Shown here in pieces: positions 8,241 to 62,009 of a DNA stretch of 64,000 bases (position 1 is its first letter; each line of letters opens with the position of its first letter). This DNA is from Cymodocea nodosa. Lineage: Eukaryota; Streptophyta; Magnoliopsida; Alismatales; Cymodoceaceae. The stretch is taken from NCBI GenBank assembly GCA_036874045.1, contig JAZBRI010000009.1, positions 3,966,001-4,030,000 of the forward strand, in the 5' to 3' direction. Made by a program: the position numbers and the translations under genes. Under the pieces are notes generated by a model. That model worked only from the letters and a program-made list of their open reading frames with translations. It was not told the origin of the DNA and made no database searches.

Positions 8241-8260
8241 GTGTTGTTAAAATCTATTTC

Positions 8261-8597
8261 GGATATCTTTTAATAGATTAGTTAAAGGTCTAGCTATTTT
8301 GCTAAAGTCTTTAATAAATCTTCTATAAAAACCAGCATGTCCTAGAAATGATCTAATATCTTTTACTGATTTAGGTTCTGATAGATTAGAAATTACTTCT
8401 ATTTTAGCTTTATCTACTTCCAACCCTTTCTTTAAAACAACATGCCCTAAGACTATTCCTTGTTTAACTATGAAGTGACATTTTTCCCAATTTAAAACCA
8501 GATCTTTTTCCATACAGCGTTTTAATATTTGGTCTAAATTTTTTAAACAATCTTCATATGAGTTGCCATATACAGTAAAATCGTCCATAAATATTTC
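8261..8597 (-). pseudogene. Inverted copy of the RT fragment
   Basis: This is the mirror copy of 7889-8223 on the minus strand, from [10 protein letters not shown] to TNLLKD, differing by only a few residues (for example IVKQGIVLGH versus [10 protein letters not shown]). The open frame runs a little way into the loop. The small divergence between the arms suggests a fairly recent duplication compared with the solo LTRs on the left. Confidence 0.9.
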
Positions 8598-17493: not shown

Positions 17494-18010
17494 ACGAGTG
17501 GCAACTTGCTGCTAGTTGATTCTACATGTGATGGTGCGGTGATTTGTCCGATGGCATGGTGAGTCCTTTGACGAGTGGCAACTAATTCTACACATGCACA
17601 GAATTAGGGACGTGCAGATGGTACAAGTGATTTCGTCCAACAAGTGGGAATTGATTCCATGCGTGCACAAAATTAGGGATGTGTAGATGGCACGAGCGAT
17701 TTTGTTTGATAAGTGGTAGTTGATTCTACATGCACACAAAATCGGGGATGTGCAAATTGTGCGAGTGATTTCATTTGACGAGTGGCAACTGATTTCGTAT
17801 GTGCATAGAACCAGGAATGTACAGATGGTGCAAGTGATTTCATTTGACAAGTGATAGTTAATTCTATAAGCACCTAGAATCGAGGATGTGTAGATGCTGC
17901 AAGCGATTTCGTCTAGTGAGTGGTAGTTGATTCCATGTGTGCATAAAATCAAGGATGTGCAAATGGCATGAGCAATTTCGTCTAACAAGTGGTATCTGTT
18001 CTACACATAC
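17494..18010. repeat. 69-bp minisatellite, about seven units
   Basis: The phrase 'a(c/t)(g/a)agtgg' recurs at 17571, 17640, 17709, 17778, 17847, 17916 and 17985, exactly 69 bp apart, with a first unit at 17494 that is 77 bp from the next. Units share 'attctacacatgcacagaat…gatgtgcagatgg…aagtgatttcgt'. Because 69 is a multiple of three, one minus-strand frame stays open (17512-17988) as a 23-residue repeat. No start context or homology supports a real protein. Confidence 0.85.
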
Positions 18011-32919: not shown

Positions 32920-34058
32920 TTAAGAACATGATTGAAAAGTAGGAACAAATGCAATAAATGTATCAGTCCAAGCAAACTTTTTAGGCATAGTTCTTCTTGC
33001 TATTAATTCTGTTTTCATGAAGTTCTTGTTCCTTCTTAATTTGTAAACGTGTAATATATTATAAATTCCAAATACAAATGTATTACCATTAATGATATGA
33101 AATGCAGAAAGGGATCCTTTTTGGTTCCAAGGTAATGTAGCAGTTTCTATTTCTACATCTATTTCAATATATTCCTCTTCCCACTTCCATTCATTTATGT
33201 CTTCTATAATCCATATTTGAAATTTCATTAGTTCATCCCACCATCTTATCAGACATAAAGTAGGATCATCTTCTTCATTATACCACATACCTATTTGAAT
33301 TTTATTAAATTCTGCAGATGGCGGTTTAGCTATATCACTCAGTATAGGTAAAATTTCTATATATTCATCATAACTGTCTATGCTCACTATGTATAAATCA
33401 AATTCAAATGTTATTGATATATCTGTAACAAGATATATATATCCATCCAGTATGACATGTGTTTGTTAATTAATGATTTCTGTCCAAGATATATTATAAT
33501 ATTTTCATTCTAAGATCTATTTAGAAAATTATACACACTTAAGCGTAAATCTTCACCCCAATTTCCTATAGGTCTCCAATAATATAATTTTTCAGGAATT
33601 GTAGAATTTTTATCATAAAATATTAAAGCCGATCCACAATTTACAGTTGGTACTTCAAATCTATTAGGTCTTCCTATATTCCATTCTTCTCCTGTTATAG
33701 GATTTCTTATCAAAATATCGGGTAATAATAAACTTCCATACCTTGGTCTCATCCTATATATGATTAATCATTCATCTATCCCCATAATCTGATTTATTCC
33801 TTCTAATGTATTGGGTGGAATTCTAGTAGTTTCTTCCATAGCAAGATATTCATGATTAATTGAACTACGATTAAATGACCTCCATATGAATCCATCTCTA
33901 ATCTTAGTCATTTTTGCAACTTGTAGTCCTTGAAAATATTTTTCTTCAATACAGTCTTTAATTTCCTTTGATACACAACAAAGCCTGCACAGATCTTTAG
34001 CTGACAAGTTACTCAGTACTTCCCTTAGTGCATCCAACGGTAATTGCATCAATTCCAT
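32920..34058 (-). pseudogene. F-box gene carried by element M
   Basis: An intronless gene of about 379 codons. Residues 1-45 form an F-box (MELMQLPLDALREVLSNLSA… with CRLCCVSKEI), the segment that binds Skp1 in SCF ubiquitin ligases. The rest resembles an F-box-associated beta-propeller, with ILIRNPITGEEWNIG, LYYWRP, SVYNFLNRS and a tryptophan-rich IWIIEDINEWKW near the end. It is broken by a TGA at 33768-33770, a TAG at 33510-33512 (Trp codon in P) and a 1-bp deletion near 33462. Elsewhere the frame is intact. It starts about 190 bp after the gag stop and is followed by the element's 3' region. The copy in P is about 90% alike, so the gene moved with the element. Substrate unknown. Confidence 0.88.
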
Positions 34059-34248
34059 TTGTTGATTCTGTATAACACAAACAAAAATTTAGCAGAGACA
34101 AAAGATTAACATAACTACTGCACACCCTCGTAGAGTTAAGGCATAACTCAACGGAATAAGTTCGTTGAGTTAAGGATTGACTCTACGATACTATTAACTA
34201 TAAATAAAAACATATATATACACAGATAGTTGCTTTAGATATGCTGCT

Positions 34249-35592
34249 TCATTCAGCTACCCTCCCAAAAGATGTATCAATTTCATTAACCGTTCTATTG
34301 ACAGGATTAGGTATTGCTTGTATTGGCAATCCTCTAGTAGGTCTACCTTCCATTGGTTCCTTCTGTCTAAGTGGTATATTTCTATTCTGATTTTGAATTG
34401 CAGCACTTCCAAATACAAAATCTAGACACTTGTTTAATTGTTGGATTATCTTTTCTAATTTCTCTATTCTAGATCCTTGTTCCAGTATTGCTTCATAACT
34501 TATATTCTTCTCATTTATATTTTCTCCTCCCTAGAAATTGTTGTTTCTCCAAGATAAATTCGGGCGATTTCTCCAATTAGGATTATAAGAATTTCCCAAG
34601 TTATCTCTTTGGTTTCTAGCATAAATAATATCTAAATCATTTTTGTTTGCATTCTTTTCTACTAGCTTTTGATTTAATGATAACTCTTCTATTTTCTTTG
34701 TTAATTCATTTAATTTTACCTCAAGCATAGTACTTGAATCTATTTCATGCATTCCTCTTGGCAATATTTTTTTATCTACAATAGCTTCAATCGAATTTTC
34801 CCTCTGTGTAGTTCTTTTTGCAAAGTTTTCTAAATATGTCCATGCTTCTTCACTACATAACTTTAAAAATCCATTTTGACAAGTAGATTCTAATAAAGAT
34901 TTCGTTGAAACATCTATGCCTTCATAAATTATACCTATTAATTGTGCTTTACTCATTGCATGATGTGGACTTTGAGTTAGTAAATCTTTAAATCTTTCAA
35001 AATATTTCTAAAATGATTCACCCTATTTTTGGCTACACATTAATATTTCCTTCTTCTTTTTAATCGTTTGATGTGTTAGATAATATTTTTTCAGAAAAAC
35101 AGAACAAAATTTAGTCCATGTAAAAATTGAATCAGGCGATAGAGTATATAACCATCTCTTAGCTGTGTCTTTTAAAGAAAAAGGGATATATCTAAGTTTA
35201 ATAGCATCTATACTCATGTTCGGCATTTTCATCATTTGATAAACTTCATTAAATTCTCTAAGGAAATAATAGGCATCCTCTCTTTCTAATCTACGAAAAT
35301 GTGGCAATTGACTAATATAATTAGATTTCAGTTCAAACCTATCTCCTTCAAAGTTTGGCAATCGAATACATGAAGGTTCATCAACTAATTCAGGATACAA
35401 AATTTCTCCTAATGGTTTTTCTACTGGAACAGCCATCTCTATGTTCTCTTTTAAAGAAAGGTTAGCTACACCCCAAAGAATTTCGTTAAAGTTCAGTTCA
35501 GAAAATTTTTCAGTACTCCTTTGCGATGAAAATTCTTGGGTAGGTGTTCTTACTAATCGTTTAGTGCTTAGAGAATGAGTCCATGTGCTCAT
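34249..35592 (-). pseudogene. Athila-type gag ORF of element M
   Basis: 448 codons with a retrotransposon gag capsid domain: FEGDRFELKSNYISQLPHFR, AYYFLREFNEVYQMMKM, IKLRYIPFSLKDTAKRWLY, TWTKFCSVFLKKYY, then SKAQLIGIIYEGVD and EAWTYLENFAKRT. Next comes NPNWRNRPNLSWRNNNF, a hallmark of Athila gag, and a coiled-coil tail (RIEKLEKIIQQLN). No zinc knuckle; that lies at the start of pol instead. In-frame stops are TAG at 35023-35025, TAG near 35011 (Trp codon in P) and TAG near 34529 (Gln codon in P). The first is shared with P. Gag lies downstream of pol, the reverse of the normal order. Confidence 0.9.
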
Positions 35593-35661
35593 AAATAAAT
35601 AGCAGAAGATTAATTACATACCAGTCTGAAGCTTTCCATTTAGTAAATATTTGTTGTCGGA

Positions 35662-36529: not shown

Positions 36530-37377
36530 TGTTTAGAATGAAAAAGTGCATATTATTAACGGTTAAATGATGGTTAATTGCATAATATTTAGCTTATCAT
36601 ATGAGAATTAAGTCATTATATTATAATTGCACTATTATATGCTTTAATTGAAGAATCTACTTAATTTTGTGAAATTAATGTCAATTTAGTACATTTCTAA
36701 ACTGTCGGTAAGTTGCAGGCTGTGAAATTCTTAAGTATCCAAATTTTCTGATATTTCGGACAGTTATGTTTAACATACTGAACATATTTCGGACAATTAT
36801 GTTTAATAGACCTAACATGTCGGATAGTTATGTTTAAATTGCCGAACAGTTATGTTTTGAAAGAATATTTTATTATTTCCTAAAGTACATGTGTCAAAAC
36901 CATAATGCATGACTTAAGTGAACTTTCGGTGAGTTATCTCTAACTATCCGAAATTGCAGCTAGGCATCGGACAGTTATATGTGTAACCCTCCGAAATCTC
37001 TTTTTATTTATAAAATAGTTGTGGACACGTGTCATGTTTTGGTAAAGTGACTTAAGTGGACTTTCGGCGAGTTAGCTGTAACTATCCAAAATGCATCTAA
37101 GCATTGGATAGTTAGACCTGTAACTCTCCGAAATGGGTATTTTATTATTAAACTACTATTGACATGTGTCGAGATTTGGTAGATTTACTTAAGTTATATA
37201 TCGGTGAGTTAGCTGTAACTATCCGAAATACATCTGAGCATCGGATAGTTAGGTTTATAAGTATCCAAAATGCACCTAAGCATCGGATAGTTAAATTTAT
37301 GCACGTGTTTTATAGTTAAATCAACGAAGAAAGTCTGTTGAGTTATCTGTAACTCCACGAACTATTTATTTTCTAAT
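36530..37377 (+). repeat. 5' LTR of P, 3' part deleted
   Basis: Starts TGTTTAGAATG at 36530 and keeps about the first 850 bp, the upstream (U3-like) part. It has four AACTATCCGA…TCGGATAGTT hairpins between 36940 and 37300 and G-box sites near 37024 and 37303. At 37377 it jumps from 'ttctaatt' to internal sequence just past the primer site ('cagggaattgaattg'), so TATA, R, U5 and most of the primer site are lost. Confidence 0.88.
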
Positions 37378-37501
37378 TCACTGTCAGGGAATTGAATTGA
37401 ATTAAATTAACTCGAATTGAATTGAATTAATATAAGCAACTGTTAGAGCTATTTTGTTTTAATAGCTAGAGAGTTGTGTCTTTTCTTTTGTAATTGAGAA
37501 T

Positions 37502-40500
37502 ATGGCATATGCTTATACTCAAAGATTTCTGAAACCTGTAATTAGCATATGTGAATTCTGCAATTCTGAAGGACATGACATTTCTAACTGTTTGTAACTG
37601 AGACGTTTACAGATGGTTAGATCCCATGAACAACAAATGAATTATCCTCAATATAATAGAGCCGAGTATGAGAATCCTATAGTTTACCTAACTGATGGTC
37701 AATATAGAATGTGTAATATGTTGAGAGACACAGAAGTTTGGGATAGGTATGACAGACTGGAGTGTAGTATAGAGCAAAACCTTGACAAACTGGAATACTT
37801 TATGTGTCAGCAACAAGAAGTCAACCAATTAAATTATAAGGAAGCATATTCAGAACCTAAAAATGATATAATTTACGAAATTGAAAAAATCATAATGAAA
37901 ATTGATCAAAAATTGAGTACAATGAAATTAGATGATCTAGAAAGAAAACTAAAAGCATTAGACGAATATACAATGAAAATACAAGTTATGCAACAGGACA
38001 ATGAAAATTATAATATTATAAACCTGCATAATTTGCAAAATACACAGCCAAAAGAAAATATTAATGCAAGAAAATTTAAATGAATGCACTTTAAAACTAA
38101 AAACAATTGAAGATCATAAACATGAAAATGATATACAAAAACATCATCAGAGTAATGAAAATCTGGAAGATGTATGTGTAACTTTAAGATCTGGAACTAA
38201 TATACCACCAAGAACTCAAAATGAAAATGATATAAAGGTGGATAAGAGTAAAAATGAAAATGATATAAAGGTGGATAAGAGTAAAAATCAAAATGATAAT
38301 GAAAATGTAATAGCTAAAAATCTAGAAATCACTAAAGAACAATCTGAATCTGCTAATGAAGCTAAAAATGAACAAACAAATCAAATGAAAGAAAAAGAAT
38401 CTTTAAAATCAAAATCTTTAGCACCCTATCCTGAAAGATTACAATAAACAATACCTGAAAAACAAGAAAAAATCAGAGAAATTTTTGAAAAAGTACAAGT
38501 TAACATTCCTTTATTTGCTCTATTGTAGAAAATGCCACCTTGTGCTAAATTTTTAAAGGATTGGTGTACTAAGAAAAGAGAGCAAAAAGTTCTTAGAAAT
38601 GTCTTTTTAGCTGAGCAAAGTAGTTCCCTATTTCTGCCACGAATTCCTAAAAAGTTATCTGATCCTAGAATTCCTGTTATATCATGCACCATAGGAAACA
38701 CCATTTTAGAAAGAACCTTAATAGACTTAGGTGCAAGTATAAATGTTATGCCAAGTGATATATTTGCTTCCTTAGGATTAGAAGGCTTAACTCCTACTAG
38801 TACGGTTATTCAATTAGTTGATAGAAGTATAAGATACCCTAGAGGAAAAATAGAGGATGTCTTAATTAAAATCAAAAACTTTATATATCCTATTGATATT
38901 GTAATTTTGGATTCCCAACAAATTAAGCTTAAAAATAGTGATACATCTTTAATTTTGGGAAGGCCATTTTTAGCAACATCAAGAGCTGTTATAAATTGTA
39001 AAACTGGAGTAATGAAGCTAGCATATGGTAATGAGGATACTCTATTAAATATTTTCAAACCAGAAAGGTTTGAGGAGTTAGAAATGTCCTTACATACCAT
39101 AGACTTTTTAGAGGATGAAGGAGATATGTTAGATGATGTGATTCAAGAAGAATTAAATAGGCAAATCAATTCTAAAACTTTAAAGGAAAGTGAAAGCATA
39201 AATATAGAAGGAGATCTGGAAGAAATTAATTTAGAAAATGATGATGTTCATTTAGGAGTTCTAGCTTCTGATGGGCAACATTTAGAATTAAAACATTTAC
39301 CTCCTGAATTAACTTATATATTTCAGATGTCCAATCATTATTGCTTCAGATTTAAAAGAGGATCAAATAGCTAAATTAAAAGATGTAGTAAAGAGTTATA
39401 AAGAAGCAATAGGATGGACTATGACTGATATAAAAGGGTTAAGTTCAATTTTATGCTGTCACCACATATATTTAGAAGAGAATGCTAAACCTGTTAGAAT
39501 TCCTAAGAGGAGATTAAATCCAAACCTTAAAGAAGTAGTCAAGAAGGAAATAGTGAAATGGTTAGATAATGACATAATTTATCTGATTTCTGATAGCTCG
39601 TGGGTTAGCCCAATCCATGTAGTTCCCAAGAAATCAGGATTAACAATTATTAAGAATGAAAGTCAAGACTTGATACCTACTAGAATTCAATCAAGTTGGA
39701 GAGTATGTATAGACTATAGAAAGCTGAATGCTGTGACTAGGAAAGATCATTTTCCCTTACCTTTTATAGATCAAATGCTAGAAAGATTAGCAAGGCAAGA
39801 ATATTTTTGTTTCCTAGACAGGTATTCAGGTTATAATCAAATTTTAGTAGCGTTAGAGGATCAAGAGAAAACAACGTTCACCTGTCTTAATGGAACTTAT
39901 GCTTTTAAGAGAATGCCATTCGGATTATGCAATGTACCAGCTACCTTTCAAAGGTGTATGCAGGGCATATTTACTAGAATGATTGAGGATTTCCTAGAAA
40001 TATTTATGGATGATTTTACTATATATGGCAACACATATGAAGTTTGTTTAAGCAATTTAGACCAAATATTAAAACACTGTGTGGAAAAGAATCTGGTTTT
40101 AAATTGGGAAAAATGTCACTTCATGGTTAAATAAGGAATAGTCTTAGGGCATATTGTTTCTAAGAAAGGGTTGGAAGTAGATAAAGCTCAAATAGAAGTA
40201 ATTTCTAATCTACTAGAACCTAAATCAGTAAAAGATATTAGATCATTTCTAGGACATGCTGGTTTTTATCGAAGATTTATTAAAGACTTTAGCAAAATAG
40301 CTAGACCTTTAACTAATCTATTAAAAGATGTCCCATTTAACTTTGATAAAAATTGCACGGAAGCATTTTTCAGACTTAAGACTAGCTTAATTTCAACTCC
40401 TATAATTCAAGCACCTGATTGGAACCATCCATTTGAATTAATGTGCGATGCTTCTGATTTTGCTGTAGGAGCAGTGTTAGGACAGAACATAGAAAAATCT

Positions 40501-42155
40501 CCTAGAGTGATCTAATATGCAAGCAAAACCTTAAATGATGCTCAAGTTAATTACACAACTACTGAAAAAGAATTATTAGCTGTTGTGTTTACCTTAGAAA
40601 AGTTTAGATCATATCTGATTGGAGCTAAAGTGATAGTATACATGAATCATTCAGCTCTAAAACATCTAATAAAGAAAAAAGAGACTAAACCTAAATTGAT
40701 TCGATGGATATTATTATTAAAAGAATTTGATCTAGAAATTAAAGATAAAAAAGGTTGTGAGAATGTAGTAGCAGATCATTTATCAAGATTACAAATAGAA
40801 AAATCAAATATTGAAATTGAGGATAATTTTCATGATGAACAATTAATGAACATCAACACAATGCCTTGGTATGCAGACATAGTTAATTACTTAATAACTG
40901 GTTTAACACCTAAGGATTGGAATAGACAAGATAAGAAATTATTTTTCTCAAGAGTAAAATATTACTATTGGGAAGACCCATACTTATTTAAGAAATGTCC
41001 TGATTTGGTTTTAAGGAGGTGTGTTCCAGAAACTGAATATCTGAGCATATTGTCTTTCTATCATGACCAAGCTTGTGGAGGGCATTTTGGTTCAAGGAAA
41101 ACTGCTGTAAAAATTCTGCAATGTAGGTTTTATTGGCCAACACTATTCAAAGATGCTCATAAATATTGCTTAAGTTGTTTAAGATCTCAACAAATAGGAA
41201 GAATATCAAAGAGGAATATGATGCCTCTTAATCCTATTGTTGATGTTGAAATCTTTGATATGTGGGGAATAGATTTTATGGGTCCATTTCCTATGTCTAA
41301 TCAATTTAATTACATATTGTTGGGGGTGGATTATGTATCTAAATGGATAGAAGCTATTCCTACAAAAACTAATGATAACAAAGTGGTAATACAATTTATA
41401 AGAACAAATATATTTGCCAGATTTGGAATACCTAAAACTATTATCAGTGATAGAGGAACTCATTTCTGTAATAGAAGTTTTGAAGCCTTAATGAAGAAAT
41501 ATGGAGTAAACCACAAAATTGCAACATCATATCATCCGCAAACAAGTGGACAAGTAGAAAGTGCTAACAAACAAATTAAGTTAATCTTAGAAAAAGTAGT
41601 AAATCCTATTAGAACAGATTGATAGATGCACTTTGGGCTTATAGAACTGCTTATAAAACAAGCTTAGGTATGTCACCTTTTAGGCTAGTATATGGAAAAA
41701 GCTATCATTTACCTTCTGAAATAGAAAATAAAGCTTATTGGGCATTAAAATCTCTGAATACTAATTTAAATCAAGCTGCTGAAAATAGAAAAATGCAACT
41801 AATTGAATTAGAAGAATTTAGAAATGAAGCTTATTCGAAGACTGTAAGAGAAAAAGAGAAAATTAAATTCTGGCATGATAAAAAAATTATTCCAAAATGC
41901 TTTGAAATAGGACAAGAAGTATATCTTTATATGGCTAGACTCCATAACCATCCAGGAAAATTAAGATCTAGATGGGGAGGACCTTACATAGTTCGAAATA
42001 TTTATCCTTATGGAGCTATTGAAATTGAAAATCCTAAAAATCAGAATATATTTAAAGTAAATAGACAAAGACTTAGACCTATTCTGAAAACACCAAAAAG
42101 CTCCTTTGGAATTATAGAAGAAGTCAGAGTAGAGGATTACTCAAGCTTTACTTAG
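37502..42155 (+). pseudogene. Athila-type pol of element P
   Basis: About 1550 codons with breaks. Near residue 16 is an intact knuckle CEFCNSEGHDISNC, then a coiled-coil, Lys/Glu-rich region (37700-38440). The protease has DLGASINVMPSDIF (near 38725) with the Athila-style DLG. The RT has VPKK, WRVCIDYRKLNAVTRKDHFP, SGYNQI and catalytic FMDD (40003-40014). RNase H has [14 protein letters not shown], but the DH motif reads NH. Integrase follows, with one zinc-finger Cys changed (SCLRS), then SDRGTHF and [15 protein letters not shown]. Breaks: TAA near 37590, TAA near 38445, TAG near 38527, a deletion near 39325, TAA near 40132, TAA near 40513 and a frameshift near 41620. The core makes cDNA and integrates it; this copy cannot. 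It lacks a gag domain upstream. Confidence 0.92.
38219..38284 (+). repeat. In-frame 33-bp tandem duplication in P pol
   Basis: Two copies of a 33-bp unit encoding NENDIKVDKSK sit in the Lys/Glu-rich linker. M has only one unit here, so the duplication is private to P and keeps the frame. Confidence 0.8.
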
Positions 42156-42763
42156 TAAGAAATCAGTTTTTATGTTTATATATAAAAAAATAAAAAAACA
42201 CAATATATATATATATCTATATAATATAAAAATTGTTACGGTTCAACCGATCGGATCCATCGATATGACCGGAACATAAAAAAATATGTATATTAATTTT
42301 AAGAAAAAAATGTTGGTTTTACCGAAACATAGTATCAATTCAACTAGAAAAAAATATTTAGGTCTGACCGAAACATAGTATCGGTTCAACCGGAAAAAAT
42401 ATTTAGGTCTGACCGAAACATAGTATCAGTTAAACCGAGATCTAAAAAAGAAAAAAAAAAAAAAATTATCTGTAGTATTATTATTATTATATCTATTTGT
42501 ATGGGGAGTCCGTTGAGTATGCTTAACTCAATGAGCTTACTCCGTTGAGTCTTGAGTTAGTCAACAAGCTTATTCCGTTGAGTTATAGTTAACTCAACGG
42601 AGTACTGTAGCTAAGACCGTAGATAAAATAGGAATAGTTGGTTCGGGAAATGACTCGATTACCCGCCTAAACTTAGGACTTATTTAATCTTAAACCTAGG
42701 GTTTTGGGGGCATTATCCAGCAAATCATTTAGAATCTAGAACAGTAGAAATCAGAGTGATTCC
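42156..42763 (+). other. Spacer between pol and ORF-X in P, with 46-bp repeats
   Basis: At 42305-42445 a 46-bp unit (gaccgaaacatagtatcggtt…) occurs about three times; M has one clear unit (52840-52870). At 42500-42605 are three GTTGAGT/ACTCAAC inverted repeats. No open frame is seen. The poly-A/T runs could be slippage sites. Confidence 0.7.
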
Positions 42764-44989
42764 ATGCTGTTGTGTAACTCCATGATGAGGGAAATGACGC
42801 TTGAATTCTGGGAAGATGTAGTGGACACAACACAGTTTCTGAAGGAATCTGAAGAATGGCACACGCGGAAAAAGATCCGAAATACAACAAGAGAGAACAA
42901 GCTACAAAAGGTAGAATCAGAACTCTTTAACTTAAGGAAAGTTTTAGTTGAGTTAGAAATACAAATACCACAGATAATGGAGACACGGATTAGAGTGGCA
43001 ACTAAAATTGTAGTTAGCCAAGAAAGAAAAATCCAGCCAAACAATGAAGTAGCCCTAGAGCTAATTCAACGTAAAGCCAAATTGTGGTTTAAGAAACGCA
43101 TTGCTGGTCGAGGAAGCTAGGCAATATGGGAGCAGCAACGAGCAAGAGAACAAGAAGAATCGACTACTGAAAGACCTATTCCTGAGGAACAGTAGTCAAG
43201 ACCTCCAGTTCAGCCAACAGAGCCATTGCCACGATTAGCATTTGTTTGGCCGAGAACTGAAGAAGAAGAGAAAGAATTTACTAGCTTGGTCAAAACAGCA
43301 AGAGACCAAGGTGATACTCAAGAAATAGCTACGGCTAAGGCACATATTTTATATGATGCCATTAAGAGAAAAAGGGTCGAAGAAAGGATAAGGGCCCAAT
43401 ACAAAATAAAAGTTGAATAGTATTAGGTAGCAACTACTACCAAACCTGTTGCAAAAGGAGATGAAGCTGGTCCTTCAAGACCAACAATTATAGAAAAAGT
43501 TAAACAGGAAGAGCCAGTACCTATGGCTCGAAGGCTTGTAGAGCCTACTTTTGTAGATTTAATTTCCGAAGATGAAGAGGAAGAACAGGCACAACTAATC
43601 AGAAAAAAGAAAGGAAAAGAAAAAGTGCCTGCATATGGAGAAATTAAATCTGAGATACCAATAGTAGCAGGGCCTGTCAAGCAAATTTTTATTAACCTAC
43701 TATCCGATTCTAAGGAGCAGGAGGAGTTGCAACAACAGGAGCAAAGAAAAGAAAAAAATTAGGCTGAAATTAGTCTACAGCCTGTACAAGAAGAAACAGA
43801 AATTAGGGCAGAAACTGAATTACCCGTGACTCCATCCTAATCTGTTACAAAATCAGAAAGAACAGTAACAAAACAGATTGGTAGTCAGGAGGAAGAAGAA
43901 AGAGTAGAAAATGAAGAGAATGAAAGAAGCCATTTGGACAAAAATAATCTCACAGATTCCATTGAAGAGCAAGAAACTCTTCAACAATATATGGAAAGAA
44001 TTCAAGACAGAGTGGAGAGTTCTGCCAGCTCACCACCACAAACAGAAATAGAAATTCAGGAATCTGTAGAAAATGTTCAAATGCAGCCTATGCTAGAGGA
44101 AGAGCAAGTACAAACCCCTCTAGAACAACAAAGTCAACTTCCTGACCTGACTGAAATAACAATTTTGAATGAAGTACATTTTTGTAGTTAGGAAGCTTTT
44201 ACCAAATACAAAGAAATAAGGGGTTACGATATTATTTATAGTAGATCAATAAATTAGGATGGAATGCAAGAAATCAAAGATCTATTTGAATTTCAAGGTC
44301 TACTGTAATTCATTTCTCAAGAGAGAGGGCATGCAGTATATGAGAATTTAGTGCCCTGTTTCTATGCAAATTTAAGAGAAAGAGGAGGAATAATTTCAAA
44401 CGTGGAGGAAGCTGATATATAGATAACACCAGAGCTTCTCCACAACATTTTTGGATTGAAGAATGAAGGAATAAAAATTTTGGAAGATACAACTGCCGTC
44501 GAGTGGACTAAACAGGAAATCAAAGATTGTTTAGCTATCAATCCTAGTGTGCCTTTATTAAACAGATTGAAGCATTTAAGTGGTAAAGCACACATGGTAG
44601 CTAACATTTTGATTAAAAATGTCAATCAATGATAGGGCCATGACATAGAATTAAGTCAATTTGTCAAATGAGCCACATATGCAGTTGTGAACAAAGTTCA
44701 AATAAATTGGTCTGCAGTTTTTATCTCCAAGCTGAAAGCAGTAAAGAAAAAATTGTTTTATGGAGATTTGATTCCACTACTGATGGTGGACTGTATCGAT
44801 TTCACTAAATGGACATCAAAAAGGATCAGATCAAGAACCATTTCAGTGAAAGAATACAGAAATTTTGTAGCTGTAGAGATAGCTCTACCTTCTGGAGGCA
44901 TTACAGGAGTTGTAGAAAGAATTAGTCAATTAGAACTTCAATTAGAAAAACTCCAGAGGGAAGTAGATGAACTAAGGAATAGAGATTAA
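42764..44989 (+). pseudogene. ORF-X of P: Glu/Gln-rich protein with plant-transposon-protein domain
   Basis: About 740 codons. The N-terminus has FWEDVVDTTQFLKESEEWH and a Lys/Arg-rich coiled coil. The middle is very Glu/Gln-rich (FVDLISEDEEEEQ, INLLSDSKEQEE). The C-terminal third has FYANLRERGG, ITPELLHNIFGL, ATYAVVNKVQINWSAVF and LFYGDLIPLLMVDC, which follow the pattern of the 'putative plant transposon protein' domain of Athila-type elements. It ends with a leucine-zipper-like coil (RISQLELQLEKLQREVDEL). At least ten in-frame stops are present. This ORF follows pol in Athila elements; its role is unknown and no membrane or envelope signal is seen. Confidence 0.75.
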
Positions 44990-45978
44990 ATTGTATTGTT
45001 TGTCTACTTGTATAATTGTATGAAAATGCATGATGTATTTGTAATGTAAATTGATTCATATTAATGAATATAATTTTTCAGATGTACTTTTATATGTGTT
45101 TTGGATGTGAAATGAATGGAATTTATTGAATATTATATAATTTGTGGAACTTTATGAATGAATATGTAACAAGTTTACAATTTGCTGAATGACAAGATAA
45201 ATGCTTAAAAATTTATGCATGTTCCAAGGTAAAATGTAAATTCTACATAATATAAAATGACCTGCAAGTTAAATTTTATATAATGTTCAGATTTAAATGA
45301 ATTTTGATTAGAATGATGCATTAATGATATAGATTTAACTTTATTTCAATTAGTAGAATGAAAAATAAAAACAGAGAGAAATTTACGAGAGTAAACTAAG
45401 AAGTTGCTAAGTGTTAACTCAACGAAGTAAGTCTGTTGAGTTAACCGTAACTCCACGAGGTCAGTAATATAATATAAGGTCACTCCGTTGATAGTTAAAC
45501 TTTCGGATAGTTAACGTCTCGTTTTTGTCGAATACTTTATGTTAAAAACTCATATAGTTAAGTTATCTGCACGTGTGTTTTTAATGTTTTAAGTTGTCAC
45601 GTGTTTTCCAGGTGCGTTCGGTAATGAAAAATCGAATAGTTAGATAACTGTTCGAGTTTTGATATGCATGGATAGATAACTATTCGAGTTTTATAAAAGG
45701 ACTAACAAATAGATAAATTCCTTTGTTCAGTTACATGTTTTGCAGGTGCAAAAACTCGAAGTGTTAAAGGATAAGTGTTCAAGTTTTTACAGGACTTAAA
45801 GGATAAATGTTCGACTAAAACGAAGTTAGTCCATGGAGTTAGCAACAGTAACCGACTGTGTTCCGTTGAGTTATCTATAACTCAACGAGGTTAGTTCGTG
45901 GATTAAGTAGAACGGTTATTCTTTTAACCACGAACGAAACTTCGTCGGTTTAGCGGTTACCAAAATTTAAAATTAATA
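44990..45978 (+). other. Spacer upstream of P gag: palindromes and an LTR-X fragment
   Basis: 44995-45480 matches M 36529-36050. From about 45488 to 45822 P carries an extra block that M lacks. Reversed, it matches the middle of LTR-X at 2563-3790 (for example 'gttcagttacatgttttgcaggtgca'). After it the match to M resumes at 'cgaagttagtcc'. GTTGAGTTA/TAACTCAAC repeats occur at 45415-45490 and 45830-45900. Confidence 0.75.
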
Positions 45979-46218
45979 GTGGTACACATACCCATAAAAA
46001 CAGGAACCATGATGCATGTTGCAAGACACGTTCTTGCAACGAGATTTATTCACTTTATGGATGTACATTATATATATAAATCAGAATATTATTTACGAGT
46101 TACCAGCACTTTTAAAAGAAAGGAGAATGCTTTAGAGGAACTGAAAGGAGAAGCAGCTAATTCAACTTCATCCGACAACAAATATTTACTGAATGAAAAG
46201 CTTCAGACTAGTATGTAA
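45979..46218 (+). CDS. Small conserved ORF upstream of gag (P)
   Basis: About 79 codons; shares RHVLATRFIHFMDVHYIYKSE and TFKRKENALEEL with M 35662-35865, where the frame ends 12 codons earlier by a stop. A TATA-like TATATATAAA is at 46069-46080, about 160 bp before the gag ATG, so this stretch may be part of an internal promoter and not a protein. No family recognised. Confidence 0.4.
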   Translation: MVHIPIKTGTMMHVARHVLATRFIHFMDVHYIYKSEYYLRVTSTFKRKENALEELKGEAANSTSSDNKYLLNEKLQTSM

Positions 46219-46239
46219 TTAATCTTCTGCTATTTATTT

Positions 46240-47577
46240 ATGAGAACATGGACTCGTTCTCTAAGCACTAAGCGATTAGTAAGAACACTTACCTAGGAAT
46301 TTTCATTTCAGAGGAGTATTGAAAAATTTTCTGAATTGAACTTTAACGAAATTCCTTGGGGTGTAGCTAACCTTTCTCTAAAAGAGAACGTAGAGATGGC
46401 TGCTCCAGTAGAAAAACCAATAGGTGAGATTCTGTATCTGGAATTAGTTGATGAACATTTATGTATTTGATTGCCAAACTTTGAGGGAGATAGGTTTGAA
46501 CTGAAATCTAATTATATTAGTCAATTGCCACATTTTCATGGATTATAAAGAGAGGAAGCTTATTATTTCCTTAAAGAATTTAATGAAGTTTGTCAAATGA
46601 TGAAAATGTCGAACATGAGTATAGATGCTATTAAACTTAGATATATCTCTTTTTCCTTAAAAGACACAGCTAAGAGATGGTTATTTACTTTAACGCCTGA
46701 TTGAATTTCTACATGGACTGAATTTTGCTCTATTTTTCTGGAAAAATATTATCCAACACATCAAACGATTAAAAAGAAGAAAGAAATCTTAATGTGTAGC
46801 CAAAAATAGGGTGAATCATTCTGGAAATATTTTGAAAGATTTAAAGATTTATTGACTCAATGTCCACATCATGAAATGAGTAAAGCACAATTAATAGGTA
46901 TAATTTATGAAGGAGTAGATGTTTCAACGAAATATTTATTAGAATCTACTTGTCAAAATGGATTTTTAAAGTTATGTAGTGAAGAAGCATGGGCATATTT
47001 AGAAAACTTTGCAAAAAGAACTACACAGTGGGAAAATTCGGCTAAAGCTATTGCAGATAAAAAAATATTGCCAAGAGGAATGCATGAAACAAGTACTATG
47101 CTTGAGGTGAAATTAAATGAATTAACAAACAAAATAGAAGAGTTATCATTAAATCAAAAGCTAGCAGAAAATAATGCAAACATAAATGATTTAGATATTA
47201 TTTATGCTAGAAACCAGAGAGATAACTTGGGAAATTCTTATAATCCTATTTGGAGAAATCACCTGAATTTATCTTGGAGAAACAACAACTTCCAGGGAGG
47301 AGAAAATATGAATGAGAAGAATATAAGTTATGAAGCATTACTGGAACAAGGATCTAGAATAGAGAAATTAGAAAAGATAATCCAACAATTAAACAATCAT
47401 CTAGATTTTGTATTTGAAAGTGTTGCAATTCAAAATCAGAATAGAAATATACCACTTAGACAGAAGGAACCAATGGAAGGTAGACCTACTAAAGGATTGC
47501 CAATACAAGCTATACCTAATCCTATCAATAGAACGGTCAATGAAATTGATACCTCTTCTGGGAGGATAGCTGAATGA
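46240..47577 (+). pseudogene. Athila-type gag ORF of element P
   Basis: 446 codons aligned to M's gag. The capsid domain spans about residues 85-260, with EAYYFLKEFNEVCQMMKM, IKLRYISFSLKDTAKRWLF, PTHQTIKKKKEILMCSQK, GESFWKYFERFKDLL and PHHEMSKAQLIGIIYEGVD. Then YNPIWRNHLNLSWRNNNF and a coiled-coil tail. Stops: TAG near 46293, TGA near 46468, TAA near 46546, TGA near 46702 and TAG at 46807-46809. Only the last is shared with M. From 46810 to 47577 the frame is open. Canonical Athila places this domain 5' of protease; here it lies 4.1 kb after the integrase stop. Confidence 0.92.
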
Positions 47578-47775
47578 AGCAGCATATCTAAAGCAACTAT
47601 CTATATGTATATATGTTTTTATTTTTAGTTAATAGTATCGTAGAGTTAGTTATTAACTCAACGAACTTAGTCCGTTGAGTTATTCCTTAACTCTACGAGG
47701 GTGTGCAGTAGTTATGTTAATTTTTGTCTCTACTAAATTTTTGTTTGTGTTATATAGAATCAACAAATAGAATTG

Positions 47776-48906
47776 ATGCAATTACCGTTGGATGCACTAA
47801 GTGAAGTACTGAGTAACTTGTCAGCCAAAGAATTGTGCAGGCTTTGTTGTATATCAAAGGAAATTAAAAACTGTATTGAAGAAAAATATTTTCAGGGACT
47901 ACAAGTTGCAAAAATGACTAAGATTAGAGATGGATTCATATGGAGGTCATTTAATTGTAGTTCAATTAACCATGAATATCTGGCTATGGAAGAAACTACT
48001 GGAATTCCACCCAATACATTAAAAGGAATAAATCATATTATGGGGATAGATGAAGGATTAATCATATACAAGACGAGACTAAGGTATGCAGGTTTATTAT
48101 TACCTAATATTTTGATAAGAAATCCTATAACAAGAGAAGAATGGAATATAGGAAGACCTAATAGATTTGAAGTACCAATTGTAAATTGTGGGTCAGCTTT
48201 AATATTTTCTGATAAAAATTCTGCAATTCCTGAAAAATTATATTATTGGAGACCTACAGGAAATTGGGGTGAAGATTTACACTTAAGTGTGTATAATTTT
48301 CTGAATAGATCTTGGAATGAAAATATTATGATATATATAGGACAGAAATCATTAATTAACCAAACACATGTCATACTTGATGGATATATATATATTGTCA
48401 CAGATATTTCAATTGCATTTGGATTTGATTTATACATAGTGAGCATAGATAGTTATGATGAATATATAGAAATTTTACTTGTACCAAGTGATATAGCTAA
48501 ACCACTATCTGCAGAATTTAATAAAATTCAAATAGGAATGTGGTATAATAAAGAAGATGATCCTACTTTATGTATGATAAGATGGTGGGATGAACTGATG
48601 AAATTTCAAATATAGATTATGGAAGACATAAATGAATGAAAGTGGGAAGAGAAGTATATTGAAATAGATGTAGAAATAGAAATTGCTACATTACATTAGA
48701 ACCAAAAAGGATCCCTTTCTGCATTTCATATCATTAATGGTAATACACTTGTATTTGGAATTTATAATATATTACACATTTACAAATTAAGAAGGAACAA
48801 GAACTACATGAAAACAGAATTAATAACAAGAAGAACTATGCCTAAAAAGTTTGCTTGGACTGATACATTTATTCCATTTATTCCTACTTTTCAATCATGT
48901 TCTTAA
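47776..48906 (+). pseudogene. F-box gene carried by element P
   Basis: 376 codons in one frame with no intron. The F-box lies at the N-terminus (LPLDALSEVLSNLSAKELCRL). The rest resembles an F-box-associated propeller, with NPITREEWNIG, LYYWRP, SVYNFLNRSW and THVILDGYIYIV. The M start codon is ATA here, so the next ATG (47776) is used. Residues 1-279 are open; then come TAG (48613-48615), TGA (48637-48639) and TAG (near 48688). All three replace Trp codons that M keeps. The TAA stop is at 48904-48906. Host F-box proteins recruit substrates to SCF E3 ligase; a role for the element (such as targeting a silencing factor) is speculation. It follows gag by about 198 bp. Confidence 0.88.
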
Positions 48907-50606
48907 GGTGTAATTTTGTGTGTTTAATGTTGTGTGTATTCTACGTTTATATATAAAAATAAAAATAAAAAAACAAAATATCAATCCAGTTTGTTGGTAT
49001 CTATTCTGGGAAACCAACTGGCTTGCTTGTGAGCCATCAGAGGCATAGGAGCCTAGGTTCCACACAAGACACTGATTTATTAATATCTGTTAAGTGTTAT
49101 TTTGATTTATATTTTACTTTTATCTGTGAATGAAAAGTTTTTCAGAATCAAAAATTGGAATATGCAGAATGAGATACAAATGGAACAAGGTATGTAACCA
49201 ATTACTTACCCTGAATTTTAAATCAAATAAAACTGTATTCATGCCTGCTACAATTACTGTACTTATTTTCAAATCTTTTACATTGAGGACAATGCAAAAT
49301 GTAGGTATGGGGGGGAGGTAATTAAAGTAACAGCTATGTAAGTTTGTTAATTAAAGAAATTAAAATGGTACCGCAAAGTTGTGGAAATTGAAATTTTTTA
49401 TGAACTTGCTGTAACTATCCGATAATTGAGACTGTAAAATTTATAATCTGTAACTGCTTGAATGTTATATTTAGAATGCTATATATGATGCTATAGAATT
49501 TACTATCTATGCAAATCTAGATATAGTATCTTATGATTTTTCTGAATTTCATGAGTTTAACAGTTTCACGATTTTAAAATGAAATCAGAATGCTTAATGA
49601 AAAATCAGTAAATTATCTAAAGTCTTGAAAGAGCTGAGATGTGAATTCTAGATTAAATGAAACACATATGATTAAAGATACATTTAATTTGACTGATTGA
49701 ACTTGTAGAATGATTTATGTGTAGATCTTATTAAACTATAGAAAAAGTATGAGCTTATTATTATGGATTCATATTTTCAGTAAATGATAGAAACAGGACT
49801 ATATGAGATTGGTGTTTTACTTCATCTGTATTAATGAAATACGTACATATACAGTATGTGATTAATGCTTTGTTTTGTGTGTATTTTGATTGAAAAAAAA
49901 TAAAAATAAATTTGAGAGTTTATTGACTTGTTTGATCACGAGCCTTTTGTACTTGAGCAGATAGGTATGCAAAGATTGCTGACCTGAAAAAGGACTCTTG
50001 AAATCTAGCAACCTAAGATCCTGATCATATCTGGGATTGTTGACTGAAAGCTCGTTACATGAGTACATTAGAAAGCTCCTATATGATTTAAGCTTGTCAA
50101 ATTAACTTTTAAAGTACGAAATATATATATATATATAGATATACTGTTCTGAAAAGATACAAATGTTTTATGAAATACAGATATCTTATGAATCGAGTAT
50201 ATTTTCTGTTATCTAGAATTGCTGTAATATGAATCTAGAATTGACTTTTGAAGTTATTTTAATGGAGATACAATTCTTTATTCTACTTGTCTTAATCATA
50301 TTGAATTGGATTGTACTTTGATTCGTATGTTGTTGAAATTTCTTCTAGAAATCTTATTGGAAAATTCGGGATAGTAGATGATGAAAAGAAGAACAAATGA
50401 TAATATAATTAACACCTATGTGATGATGATATACTTTGTATGTAATTAACATATATTCTAAGTATATTAGCAGGTTGATTACTGAAACTTACAAAATATA
50501 TATTCTTATGCTGAATAGAAAAGAAAAAAGAAGAATAATTAATTCTAGCACTTTTTGAAAGACCAATTAATTAGATCTTAGTTTGCTAAGGGACTAGCAA
50601 AATTTA
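48907..50606 (+). other. Non-coding 3' region of P with internal purine tract
   Basis: Collinear with M 31181-32919. At 49303-49319 AGGTATGGGGGGGAGGT follows CATTGAGGACAATGCAAAATG. No conserved open frame. 'aatttaggtatgggg' recurs at the true polypurine tract, so the internal tract looks like a duplicated 3' end. Confidence 0.7.
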
Positions 50607-50618
50607 GGTATGGGGAAG
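50607..50618 (+). other. Polypurine tract of P
   Basis: GGTATGGGGAAG directly precedes the LTR start TGTTTAGAATG at 50619. Confidence 0.85.
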
Positions 50619-51222
50619 TGTTTAGAATGAAAAAGTGCATATTATTAACGGTTCAATGATGGTTAATTGCATAATATTTAGCTTATCATATGAGAATTAA
50701 GTCATTATGTTATAATTGCACTGTTATATGCTTTAATTGAAGAATCTGCTTAATTTTGGAGAATTAATGTCAATTTAGTACATTTCTGAACTGTCGGTAA
50801 GTTGCAGGCTATGAAATTCTTAAGTATCCGAATTTTCTGATATTTCAAACAGTTATGTTTAACACACCGAACATATTTCGGACAGTTATGTTTAACAGAC
50901 CGAACATGTCGGATAGTTATGTTTAAATTGTCGAACAGTTATGTTTTGAAAGAATATTTTATTATTTCCTAAAGTACATGTGTCAAAACCATAATGCATG
51001 ACTTAAGTGAACTTTCGGTGAGTTATCTCTAACTATTCGAAATTGTAGATAAAGTGCAAATTAGAATTAATATCTAAATTGTATTAAAGGTTGTTTGTTT
51101 ACTTCTAAAAGAAAGAATATGCATAAAGATAAATTAACTAAAAAAAGAAGTAACAAATCAAAGTTTTTCTGGTACGTTATTGGAGATCTAATCAGATATT
51201 CTAGAGTAGTGCTGGGAAAATA
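50619..51222 (+). repeat. 3' LTR of P with large internal deletion
   Basis: Keeps about the first 430 bp and, after a junction near 51049, the last 170 bp of the LTR (…ggagatctaatcagatattct). About 1.4-1.5 kb is gone. The expected end GCAAACA is missing: the sequence breaks at 'gggaaaata' and turns into M's ORF-X on the minus strand. Confidence 0.88.
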
Positions 51223-52472
51223 GGTGGTGAGCCGGTAGAACTCTCCACTCTGTCTTGAATTCTTTCTATAAATTGCTGAAGAGTTTCTTACTCTTCAATG
51301 GAATCTGTGAAGTTATTTTTGTCCAAATGGCTTCTTTCAGCCTCTTCATTTTCTACTCTTTCTTCTTCCTCCTGACTACCAATCTATTTTGTTACTGTTC
51401 TTTCTGATTCTGTAACAGATTAGGATGGAGTCACAGGTAATTCAGTTTCTGCCCTAATTTCTGTTTCTTCTTGTACAGGCTGCAAACTAATTTCAGCTTG
51501 ATTTTCTTCTTGTCTTTGCTTATGCTACTCCTACTCCTCCTCAGAATCGGATAGCAGATTTATAAAAATTGGCTCCACAGGCCCTATTCCTATTGGTGCT
51601 TCAGATTTAATCTCTTCTTGATAGTCAAGCATTATCTCATTTCCTTTCCTTTTTCTGATTAATTGTGCATGTTCTTCCTCTTCTTCTTTTGAGATTAAAT
51701 CTACAAAAGTAGGTTCTGCAAGCCTTCAAGAACTAGGTACTGGCTTTTCCTGTTTAACTTTTTCTATAATTATTGGTCTCGAAGGACTAGCTTCATCTCT
51801 TTTTGTAGTAGGTTTGGCAATAGCTTCTTGATGTTGTTCCATTTTGATTTTATATTGGGCTTTCAACTTTTCTGCAGCCCTCTTTTTGTAAAGTGCAACA
51901 AACACTAAGTGTGCTTTAGCCATTACCAAATCTTCTGATTCTCCTTGGTTTTTCCCAACTTGAACCAGTGCTTGAAATTCCTTTAACTCTTTTTCAATCG
52001 AAGGCCCCATCATTTTTGCTCATGCCAACGGCTTAAATGGTGGAACTGAAGGTCCTAGGTGCTGTTCCTCAGGAACAAGTCTTTCAGCAGTCGGCTCCTC
52101 TTGTTCTTCCTCTTGTTGCTCCTACCGCCATATTTCCCAACTTCCACGACCAGCAATGCGCCTTTTGAACCATAATCTGGCCTTGCGTTGGATTAGCTCT
52201 AGGGCTGCTTCATTGTTCGGCCTAATTTTTCTTTCTTTACTAACTGTAATTTCTGTTGCTACTCTGATTCGTGTCTCCATTATCTAGGGTATTTGTATAC
52301 CACAATCTACTAATATTCTTCCTAATCTAAAAAGTTTAGATTCTACCTTCTGTAACTCTTTTTCTCTCGTCATATTTCTGATCTTCTACCGCGTGTGCCA
52401 TTCTTTTGATTCCTTCAGAAACTCTGATGTATCAACAACCTCTTCCCAGAATTCAGGTGTCATCTTCCTCAT
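51223..52472 (-). pseudogene. ORF-X of M, C-terminus missing
   Basis: About 416 codons remain of the ORF matched to P 42790-44036. Shared segments include PEFWEEVVDTSEFLKES, AALELIQRKARLWFKRRIAGRG, PSRPIIIEKVKQE, EPTFVDLISKEEEEE and TETELPVTPS-like text. Several stops occur, mostly at Gln or Trp codons. The frame is cut at 51223, where P's 3' LTR begins, so the plant-transposon-protein domain is absent. The start ATG used in P is changed; the next one (52470-52472) is given. Confidence 0.75.
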
Positions 52473-53040
52473 CGTGGAGTTACTCAACAGCACGGAATCG
52501 CTCTGATTTCTACTATTCTAGATTCTAAATGATTTACCGGATAATGCCCCCAAAACCCTAGATTTAAGATAAATAAGTCCTAAGTTTAGGCGGTTAATTA
52601 GGTCATTTTCCGAACCAACAATTACTATCTCATCCGCGGTCTTAACTACAGTACTCCGTTGAGTTACAGTTAACTCAACAGAATATGCACGTTGACTAAC
52701 TCAAGACTTAACGGAGTAAGCTCGTTGAGTTAAGTGTAACTCAACGGACTTCCTGTACAAACAGATATAATAATAAAAATACTACAAATAATAGTTTTTT
52801 TGTTTTTTTTTGTTTTTTTTTGTTTTTTATCGATTTAATCGATACTATGTTCCGGTAAAACCAACATTTTTTTCTTAAAATTAATATACATATTTTTTAT
52901 GTTCTGGTCATACCGATGGATCTGGTCGGTTGAACCATAATGATTTTTATATTATATATATATATTTATTTTTATTTTTTTTTTAATGTGTTTTTTTTTT
53001 ATAAATTTTTTTTTATATAAACATAAAAACTGATTTCTTA
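52473..53040 (-). other. Spacer between pol and ORF-X in M
   Basis: Mirrors P 42156-42763, with the GTTGAGTTA palindromes at 52655-52745, long T runs at 52795-53010 and a single accgaaacatagtatcg-type unit. No open frame. Confidence 0.7.
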
Positions 53041-56000
53041 CTAAGTAAAACTCGAGTAGTCCTCTACTTTGACATCTTCTATAATTCCAAAGGAGCTTTT
53101 TGGTGTTTTCAGAATAGGTCTAAGTCTTTGTCCATTTACTTTAAATATATTCTGATTTTTAGGATTTTCAATTTCAATAGCTCCATAAAGATAAATATTT
53201 CGAACTATGTAAGGTCCTACCCATCTAGATCTTAATTTTCCTAGATGGTTATGGAGTCTAGCCATATAAAGATATACTTCTTGTCCTATTTCAAAGCTTT
53301 TTGGAATAATTTTTCTATCATGCTAGAATTTTATTTTCTCTTTTTCTTTTACAGTCTTCAAATAAGCTTCATTTCTAAATTCTTCTAATTCAATTAGTTG
53401 CATTTTTCTATTTTCAAAAGCTTGATTTAAATTAGTATTCAGAGTTTTTAATGCCCAATAAGCTTTATGTTCTATTTCAGCAGGTAAATGACAACTTTTT
53501 CCATATACTAGCCTAAAAGGTGACATACCTAAGCTTGTTTTATAAGCAGTTCTATAAGCCCAAAGTGCATCTATCAACCTATTAGCCCAATCTGTTCTAT
53601 TAGGATTTACTACTTTTTTTAAGATTAACTTAATTTGTTTGTTAGCACTTTCTACTTGTCCACTTGTTTGCGGATGATATGATGTTGCAATTTTGTAGTT
53701 TACTCCATATTTCTTCATTAAGGCTTCAAAACTTCTATTACAAAAATGAGTTCCTCTATCATTGATAATAGCTTTAGGTATTCCAAATCTAGCAAATATA
53801 TTTGTTCTTATAAATTGTATTATCACTTTGTTTTCATTAGTTTTTGTAGGAATAGCTTCTATCCATTTAGATACATAATCCACCCCCAACAATATGTAAT
53901 TAAATTGATTAGACATAGGAAATAGACCCATAAAATCTATTTCCCACACATCAAAGATTTCAACATCAACAATAGGATTAAGAGGCATCATATTCCTATT
54001 TGATATTCTTCCTATTTTTTGACATCTTAAACAACTTAAGCAATATTTATGAGCATCTTTGAATAGTGTTGGCCAATAAAACCTACATTGCAGAATTTTT
54101 GGAGTAGTTTTCCCTGAACCAAAATGCCCTCCACAAGCTTGGTCATGACAGAAAGACAATATGCTTGGATATTCAGTTTCTGGAACACACCTCCTTAAAA
54201 CCAGATCACAACATTTCTTAAATAAGTATGGGTCTTCCCAATAGTAATATTTTACTCTCGAGAAAAATAATTTCTTATCCTATCTATTCCAATCCTTAGG
54301 TGTTAAACTAGTTACTAAGTAATTAACTATGTCTGCATACCAAGGCATTATATTGATGGTCATTAATTCTTCATCAGGAAAATTATCCTTAATTTCAATA
54401 TTTGATTTTTCTATTTGTAATCTTGATAAATGATCTGCTACTACATTCTCACAACCTTTTTTATCTTTAATTTCTAGATCAAATTCTTGTAATAATAATA
54501 TCCATCGGATCAATCTAGGTTTAGTCTCTTTTTTCTTTATTAGATGTTTTAAAGCTGAATGATCCATGTATATTATCACTTTAGCTCCAATCAGATATGA
54601 TCTAAACTTTTCTAAGGTAAACACAACAGCTAATAGTTCTTTTTCAGTAGTTGTGTAATTAACTTGAGCATCATTTAAGGTTTTGCTTGCATAATGAATC
54701 ACTCTAGGAGATTTTTCTATCTTCTGTCCCAACACTGCTCCTACAGCAAAATCAGATGTATCGCACATTAATTCAAATGGATGGTTCCAATCAGGTGCTT
54801 GAATTATAGGAGTTGAAATTAAGCTAGTCTTAAGTCTGAAAAATGCTTCCTTGCAATTTTTATCAAAGTTAAATGGGACATCTTTTAATAGATTAGTTAA
54901 AGGTCTAGCTATTTTGCTAAAGTCTTTAATAAATCTTCTATAAAAATCAGCATGTCCTAAAAATGATCTAATATCTTTTACTAATTTAGGTTCTGGTAGA
55001 TTAGAAATTACTTCTATTTTAGCTTTATCTACTTCCAACCCTTTCTTAGAAACAACATGCCTTAAGACTATTCCTTGTTTAACCATGAAGTGACATTTTT
55101 CCCAATTTAAAACCAGATTTTTTTCCACACAGCGTTTTAATATTTGGTCTAAATTGCTTAAATAAACTTCATATGAGTTACCATATACAGTAAAATCATC
55201 CATAAATATTTCTAAGAAATCTTCAGTCATTCTAGTAAATATACCCTACATACACCTTTGAAAGGTAGTTGGCGCATTGCATAATTCGAATGGCATTCTC
55301 TTAAAAGCATAAGTTCCATTAGGACAGGTGAAAGTTGTTTTCTCTTGATCCTCTAATGCTACTGGAATTTAATTATAACCTGAATACCCGTCTAGGAAAC
55401 AAAAATATTCTTGCACTGCTAATCTTTCCAACATTTGATCTATAAAAGGTAAGGGAAAATGATCTTTCCTAGTCACAGCATTCAGCTTTCTATAGTCTAT
55501 ACATACTCTCCAGCCTGATTGAATTCTAGTAGGTATCAAGTCTTGACTTTCATTCCTAATAACTGTTAATCCTAATTTCTTGGGAACTACATGGATTGGG
55601 CTAACCCACGAGCTATCAGAAATCGGATAAATTATGTCATTATCTAACCATTTCACTATTTCCTTCTTGACTACTTCTTTAAGGTTTGGATTTAATCTCC
55701 TCTCAAGAATTCTAACAGGTTTAGCATTCTCTTCTAAATATATGTGGTGACAGCATAAAGTTGAACTTAACCCTTTTATATCAGTTATAATCCATCCTAT
55801 TGCTTCTTTATAACTTTTTACTACATCTTTTAATTTAGCTATTTGATCCTCTTTTAAATCTAAAGCAATAATGATTGGACAGGTTCGTTTCTCTTCCAGA
55901 AATATATAGGTTAATTCAGGAGGTAAATGTTTTAATTCTAAATGTTGCCCATCAGAAGCTAGAGCTCCTAATTGAACATCATCATTTTCTAAATTAATTT

Positions 56001-57687: not shown

Positions 57688-57790
57688 ATTCTCAATTACA
57701 GAAGAAAACACACAACACTTTGGCTATTAAAACAAAACATCTCTAACAATTGCTTATATTAATTCAATTCTAGTCAATTCAATTTAATTT

Positions 57791-61933: not shown

Positions 61934-62009
61934 CTAAAAAGTTAAGCAACTTTAGTATTGTTTTATTTTCATATCATAAGGAGTGTTGTATGTTTTTATC
62001 ATTGAGAAT

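Follow-up and report, generated by a model that had tools for sequence, protein, structure and literature searches.

The usual order of plant long terminal repeat (LTR) retrotransposons is given as LTR-gag-pol-LTR, and these elements have many additional open reading frames (ORFs) of undetermined role (PMC7264820; articles are cited here from excerpts, word counts apart). Athila-group gypsy elements with an env-like ORF show this extra sense ORF between pol and the 3' LTR, and splicing is reported for barley Bagy2 (PMC7264820). Host-type genes captured inside LTR elements, in one or few copies, are described for maize (Bs1), rice and sorghum (PMC7264820, PMC13317346). In BARE1/BARE2, splicing yields a separate subgenomic RNA and a subfamily incapable of making Gag persists (PMC3735527). 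Here we analyzed a 64,000-nucleotide stretch of Cymodocea nodosa DNA (contig JAZBRI010000009.1, positions 3,966,001 to 4,030,000), referred to as the window, in which one LTR element is present twice, the plus-strand copy P (36530..51222) being nested within the minus-strand copy M and splitting it. The family of M and P resembles the Athila group and Bagy2 in its extra ORF; however, this ORF encodes an F-box protein, and gag is located after pol, inside a spliced intron. It also resembles the captured host genes, but its F-box is found in every copy read and is constrained. BARE is a Copia element whose splicing favours Gag, whereas splicing here excises gag and brings in the F-box exon. Among the titles and abstract openings listed from the open-licence literature, none reports an F-box for Athila or for any other LTR lineage, and none reports gag after pol; the word "F-box" has zero occurrences in PMC7264820, PMC11963269 and PMC13317346.

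We read these elements as a large LTR-retrotransposon family with a selected, standing F-box gene whose spliced-RNA product would be an SCF (SKP1-cullin-F-box) adaptor leading to degradation of a host factor involved in defence or silencing, and assign this reading a probability of roughly 0.55. The F-box ORF is located at 47758..48906 (+) in P and at the equivalent place, 32920..34067 (-), in M. Both copies match the Pfam F-box family PF00646 (P 34.2 bits, M 42.7 bits; cut-off 20.5) and are ~94% identical in DNA sequence. Each is broken in its own way: P shows 285 open codons followed by three in-frame stops, and M shows stops of its own and a frame shift. The original prediction, made from these two copies, had placed an F-box ORF with different stops at the same site of both elements, as we confirm, and its length of 376-379 codons fits the 12 stop-free copies of the family, which have 379-382 codons counted from the exon start.

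The 374.6 Mb genome was searched with the F-box protein; of 6,289 candidates, 136 places were scored, with 86-92% identity, P itself excepted. An F-box hidden Markov model (HMM) gave 150 scored matches among 4,219 candidates; 20 of these, a non-random choice made partly by open-frame length, were read, and 19 are family members (55-86% protein identity) and one (L049) lies outside the family. Furthermore, a 27-base pattern covering the intron end and the F-box exon (unspliced form) matches 1,441 genome places and a 28-base pattern of the spliced junction matches 204, both with up to 3 mismatches; a match indicates that the junction is present and is no proof of a whole copy. The reversed patterns, used as controls, gave 0 matches. 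Sixty copies selected by similarity, P and M included, were read (left out were L001 and L041-L044, which duplicate other loci, and L045 and L049, which gave no match). All 60 lie within an element: 56 have gag sequence directly upstream, partial in some of them, and in the remaining four gag is absent and the F-box is joined to an upstream exon. Long flanks were retrieved for 20 copies (L021-L040), and 17 of them show an LTR start downstream. Four pairs of integrase and F-box matches on the same strand, noted by eye and not as a full tally, lie 6.87-6.94 kb apart, which is the unspliced layout; one pair 5.27 kb apart carries the spliced junction (also by eye), and another, 5.31 kb apart, is not among the best 100 of the 204 spliced junctions. 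Copies with the F-box therefore abound beyond P and M, and the gene has spread with the element family, as had been proposed. Sporadic transduction, in one or few copies, was considered and is ruled out by the 1,441 and 204 pattern places. It is very unlikely that the F-box gene has been domesticated and serves the host, with the element merely spreading it; open copies are numerous, as domestication would suppose, but no stand-alone copy outside an element was found among the 60 similarity-selected copies, and constraint is found between element subfamilies.

This constraint was measured as the ratio of nonsynonymous to synonymous substitution (dN/dS, omega) by pairwise maximum likelihood, using GY94 with F3x4. 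Seven deep pairs show F-box omega values of 0.14-0.29, and for the same seven pairs 14 wrong-frame values span 0.82-2.16, while 21 values from the non-coding flanks, 0 of them significant, span 0.55-1.93. Omega is below 1 in all 539 close-deep pairs (49 x 11), which share sequences and are not independent, with a range of 0.12-0.72 and a median of 0.26, and 530 of them are significant at 3.84. In a first set, 20 of 22 pairs differ significantly from 1. Gag behaves similarly, with omega values of 0.11-0.50 in 13 pairs, and the F-box shows 0.26-0.55 in those same pairs. These values show purifying selection on the F-box frame, as dN/dS across the copies stays far under 1 while the controls (wrong frames and non-coding DNA) lie at about 1. 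Both conditions set for refuting the original prediction, a dN/dS of about 1 and a lack of the F-box in other family copies, therefore failed. A passive passenger, that is, a captured host gene hitchhiking without function, would agree with the broken state of both window copies and with the 48 of 60 copies that have no 360-codon open frame; we give it next to no credence, since it is contradicted by the median of the close-deep pairs against about 1 in the controls and by the 77-91% protein identity to P of the 12 stop-free copies.

The F-box exon of P is preceded by a GT-AG intron which contains gag (46211..47757, +) and by a short upstream exon (46100..46210, +), whose 3' end is shown and whose 5' end is presumed. 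The acceptor is a pyrimidine-rich stretch with a terminal AG, ACAG in most copies, 5' of the F-box; the donor (CTG at the exon end, then GTATGTAATT) is found ~1.55 kb before it. The donor region was read in 25 copies, 21 unspliced and four spliced, and its GT is kept in all of the unspliced ones except L040 (20/21). Divergent copies, L054 and L048 for example, retain the acceptor; it is altered in L046 and L053. The four spliced copies (L002, L008, L019 and L062) show the exons joined exactly, with an altered base at the joint in one of them. The exact loss of the intron in these copies and in the 204 pattern matches indicates that spliced element RNA was made and reverse-transcribed. Exon 1 contains a short upstream ORF, which in most copies has its stop directly before ATGGAAAGC. 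Its ATG, which opens the in-frame start MESFRL- of the spliced copies, is in frame with the F-box once the intron is removed; with the intron kept, an early stop follows and then the gag start. The gene had been predicted to be intronless, which holds for the ORF itself and fails for the mRNA, evidently spliced because the 1.55-kb intron with gag precedes the ORF.

It is extremely unlikely that the gag-less copies are due not to splicing but to ordinary deletion, to template switching or, in the opposite course, to a later gag insertion into the other copies. Other, imprecise deletions of gag do exist in L016, L029 and L034, but two observations argue against this rival: an identical exact junction at the canonical GT and AG in four copies and 204 matches, and the presence of gag upstream of the F-box in divergent subfamilies as well. 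Both gag-less copies that were followed upstream (L002/L066 and L008/L067) retain the LTR, a primer-binding site (PBS)-like sequence and pol, a BARE2-like trait. In a tree of copies the spliced forms are scattered, with L062 well apart (support 0.97 with L060, and 1.00 with L058 and L060) and weak placement of L002, L008 and L019; this scatter points to at least two, perhaps four, origins. Furthermore, the variant AATCGACAAATGG is common to 57 of the best 100 of the 204 spliced junctions (counted by eye), which suggests that one gag-less form has multiplied. A packaged spliced subgenomic RNA has been proposed to create an env-less element (PMC1142308), and the gag-less copies seem to record a similar event.

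The whole element shows the order LTR, pol, ORF-X, short exon, gag inside the intron, F-box exon, purine tract and LTR. In P, the protease region of pol (38529..39374, +; Asp_protease_2, E 8e-5, just under cut-off) is followed by reverse transcriptase, RNase H and integrase (39313..42155, +; RVT_1 1.3e-28, RT_RNaseH 6e-22 and rve 7.7e-16), which is the gypsy order, the protease match being the one under cut-off. The ORF-X region after pol (42740..44989, +) is broken in P; among the ORF-X pieces scanned no family scored above its cut-off, and ORF-X of L066 resembles Transposase_32 below threshold (E 0.042). The gag of P (46240..47577, +; Retrotrans_gag) is also broken, and the gag of M (34248..35591, -) lies within an intron with its donor near 35622 and its acceptor at 34068. 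Two gag pieces found no gag between the 5' LTR and the protease of P, M, L066 and L067 (best E 0.30), with a positive control at E 1e-166. L067 has a weak stretch before its protease (25% across ~90 residues, E 0.33), which may represent what is left of a gag-pol linker. Both L066 and L067 extend to the 5' LTR, with collinearity to P running from the leader into ORF-X. The F-box had been placed between gag and the purine tract, correctly, though for the unexpected reason that gag follows pol in this family; such a layout, in which gag also sits within an intron, differs from the LTR-gag-pol-LTR arrangement.

According to the proposed mechanism, transcripts would start in the LTR or at a promoter at a conserved TATA-like box. 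With the intron kept, Gag would be made; with the intron removed, the short exon-1 start (MESFRL) would be fused to the F-box protein. The F-box of this putative SCF adaptor would bind host SKP1, and the C-terminal part would pick the substrate, for which a host factor of silencing or restriction is the likeliest candidate. Host defence is the first guess because the plant-virus protein P0, which has an F-box-like motif, targets AGO1. This polerovirus silencing suppressor is likewise a parasite-encoded F-box-like protein that meets SKP1 (PMC6593998), a likeness of description; however, P0 belongs to an RNA virus, and the loss of AGO1 is linked there to autophagy, with the role of SKP1 left open (PMC6593998). 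FBW2, an endogenous F-box protein of Arabidopsis, also regulates AGO1 (PMC2914764).

The main rival explanation has the F-box protein act on its own element and not on host defence, for example by adjusting how much Gag or integrase is present. One intron seems to decide which of two products, Gag or the F-box protein, is made, an arrangement that would lend itself to feedback on Gag, but the plant-virus precedent of P0 and AGO1 concerns a host protein (PMC6593998); we regard self-regulation as unlikely, though still to be reckoned with. A role independent of SCF, in which the fold is kept in, for example, a particle or RNA-binding factor, appears distinctly unlikely. The position of the gene equals that of the env-like additional ORFs of plant elements (PMC7264820), as such a factor would lead one to expect. 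Against it, when six pairs were split by domain the F-box part showed the lowest omega in four, was tied in one and had 0.21 vs 0.20 in one, and the motifs LPLDA, LSNLS and KDLCRLCC are invariant across the nine stop-free copies aligned (9/9). PF00646 was found in all nine stop-free proteins scanned, with 40.3 bits in one member, above the curated cut-off. Beyond the SCF adaptor reading itself, we tentatively consider a wider scheme possible, although doubtful as a whole: the capsid gene would have moved into an intron, so that one alternative splice switches between Gag and an SCF adaptor that destroys a host silencing factor, and the spliced RNA would have been packaged and have founded a gag-less parasite subfamily still with the F-box.

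Several results weigh against the SCF adaptor reading. As noted, most copies read have no long open frame. Nine of the 539 close-deep pairs are not significant, the pairs of L063 have a median omega of 0.63, and the two non-significant pairs of the first set are L004 with L065 (0.61) and L004 with L061 (0.67). Three recent pol pairs show omega values of 0.65-1.32, indistinguishable from 1. A selection test on the frequency spectrum was dropped as confounded, because phantom frames trended similarly. The C-terminal part resembles plant F-box-associated domains under the curated cut-offs: FBA_1 matches five of nine stop-free proteins at E up to 1 (best E 0.0017), and TIGR01640 matches L054 at E 2.7e-6, under its cut-off. 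The AlphaFold model of the window F-box piece (four alignment rows) had a predicted local distance difference test (pLDDT) score of 38 and was discarded as unusable. The TATA-like box of P (TATATATATAAA, 46069..46080, +; about 130-140 bp before the donor), whose core TATATATAAA is found in 21 of 24 aligned copies, is a candidate internal promoter on the evidence of this TATA-like string.

The origin of the gene was also sought. A protein database search with the F-box protein gave 437 candidates with 0 at E 0.001, and a profile search of the PDB gave a single match (E 0.093) and no solved relative. The search for a parental host gene, suggested with the original prediction, led to one host F-box gene, L049, which is distant (~20-32% identity in pieces, best E 0.03), and no parent was identified. 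A genome search with FBA_1 gave 0 matches at E 0.001; its control likewise matched nowhere, so this result is uninformative on absence.

With regard to the layout of the window, the present length of M is ~16.2 kb, and ~1 kb of M is gone beside P. Its 5' LTR (57814..59882, -; 2,069 bp) is followed by the PBS-like sequence TGGCGCCATTGCCGGG, and its 3' LTR lies at 28973..31167 (-; 2,194 bp). The internal region of M at 51223..57790 (-) comprises protease, reverse transcriptase, RNase H and integrase as well as the first part of ORF-X. The extent of P was defined by its LTR repeats and by collinearity with M, L066 and L067. Both of its LTRs carry internal deletions: the 5' LTR (36530..37377, +), aligned to L066, has lost ~1.4 kb at its 3' end plus most of the PBS, and the 3' LTR (50619..51222, +), preceded by the purine tract TATGGGGAAG, stops a few bases before the LTR end. 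LTR ends of the form TG...CA are seen in the M 5' LTR and L066, and the flanks of M, ATACT and ATACC, agree in four of five bases as a possible target-site duplication. The LTR-LTR distance (Kimura two-parameter) is 0.081 for M and 0.046 for P (over 427 sites), and P therefore looks younger than M; assuming 1.3e-8 substitutions per site per year, this corresponds to roughly 3 million years for M and roughly 2 million years for P. The PBS-like site (TGGCGCCATTGCCGGG in M, TGGCGTCGTTGCC in L066) resembles what we take to be the complement of tRNA-Asp, an Athila trait. By its domain order the family would be a Ty3/gypsy LTR retrotransposon, and by this order and the look of the PBS it appears Athila-like.

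A ~24-bp palindrome (GTTGAGTTA...TAACTCAACGA, allowing up to 3 substitutions) occurs repeatedly in the LTR, and three coding-block borders each carry it as a pair. In P it is found at 36928, 37203, 37337, 42512, 42577, 45435, 45860, 47640, 47674 and 51017, and likewise in the LTR and after pol in L066 and L067; ten mononucleotide shuffles gave 0 matches each. It might mark promoters or past recombination points. A ~310-bp insert at 45492-45818 is present in P, L002 and L019 and absent from M, L008, L021, L022, L024, L026 and L027; it is related to positions 3299-3610 of the window, on the opposite strand. The start of a more diverged element of the F-box family is found at 61987-63694 (+), with the same pre-protease leader and 76-88% identity to P in aligned pieces. 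An inverted repeat at 7433-9053, with 804-nt arms that are 96% complementary and 13 nt between them, is built at least partly from LTR and pol sequence of the family. Elsewhere in the window, 22454-23116 (+) matches a ZIP zinc transporter (PF02535, 6.5e-30), has a GC content of 50% vs about 31% and is probably a host gene, and 15792-16334 (-) contains an ORF with a FAR1 DNA-binding domain, near a 69/138-bp tandem repeat (17595-18005).

The F-box ORF is an accessory gene with a recognisable predicted role, that of an SCF adaptor, with strong constraint and with a record of its splicing in the genome. The function of a retrotransposon accessory gene is thereby made directly testable, by asking which SKP1 the protein would bind and which substrate it would take. 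If our reading is true, the element exploits the protein-disposal system of its host.

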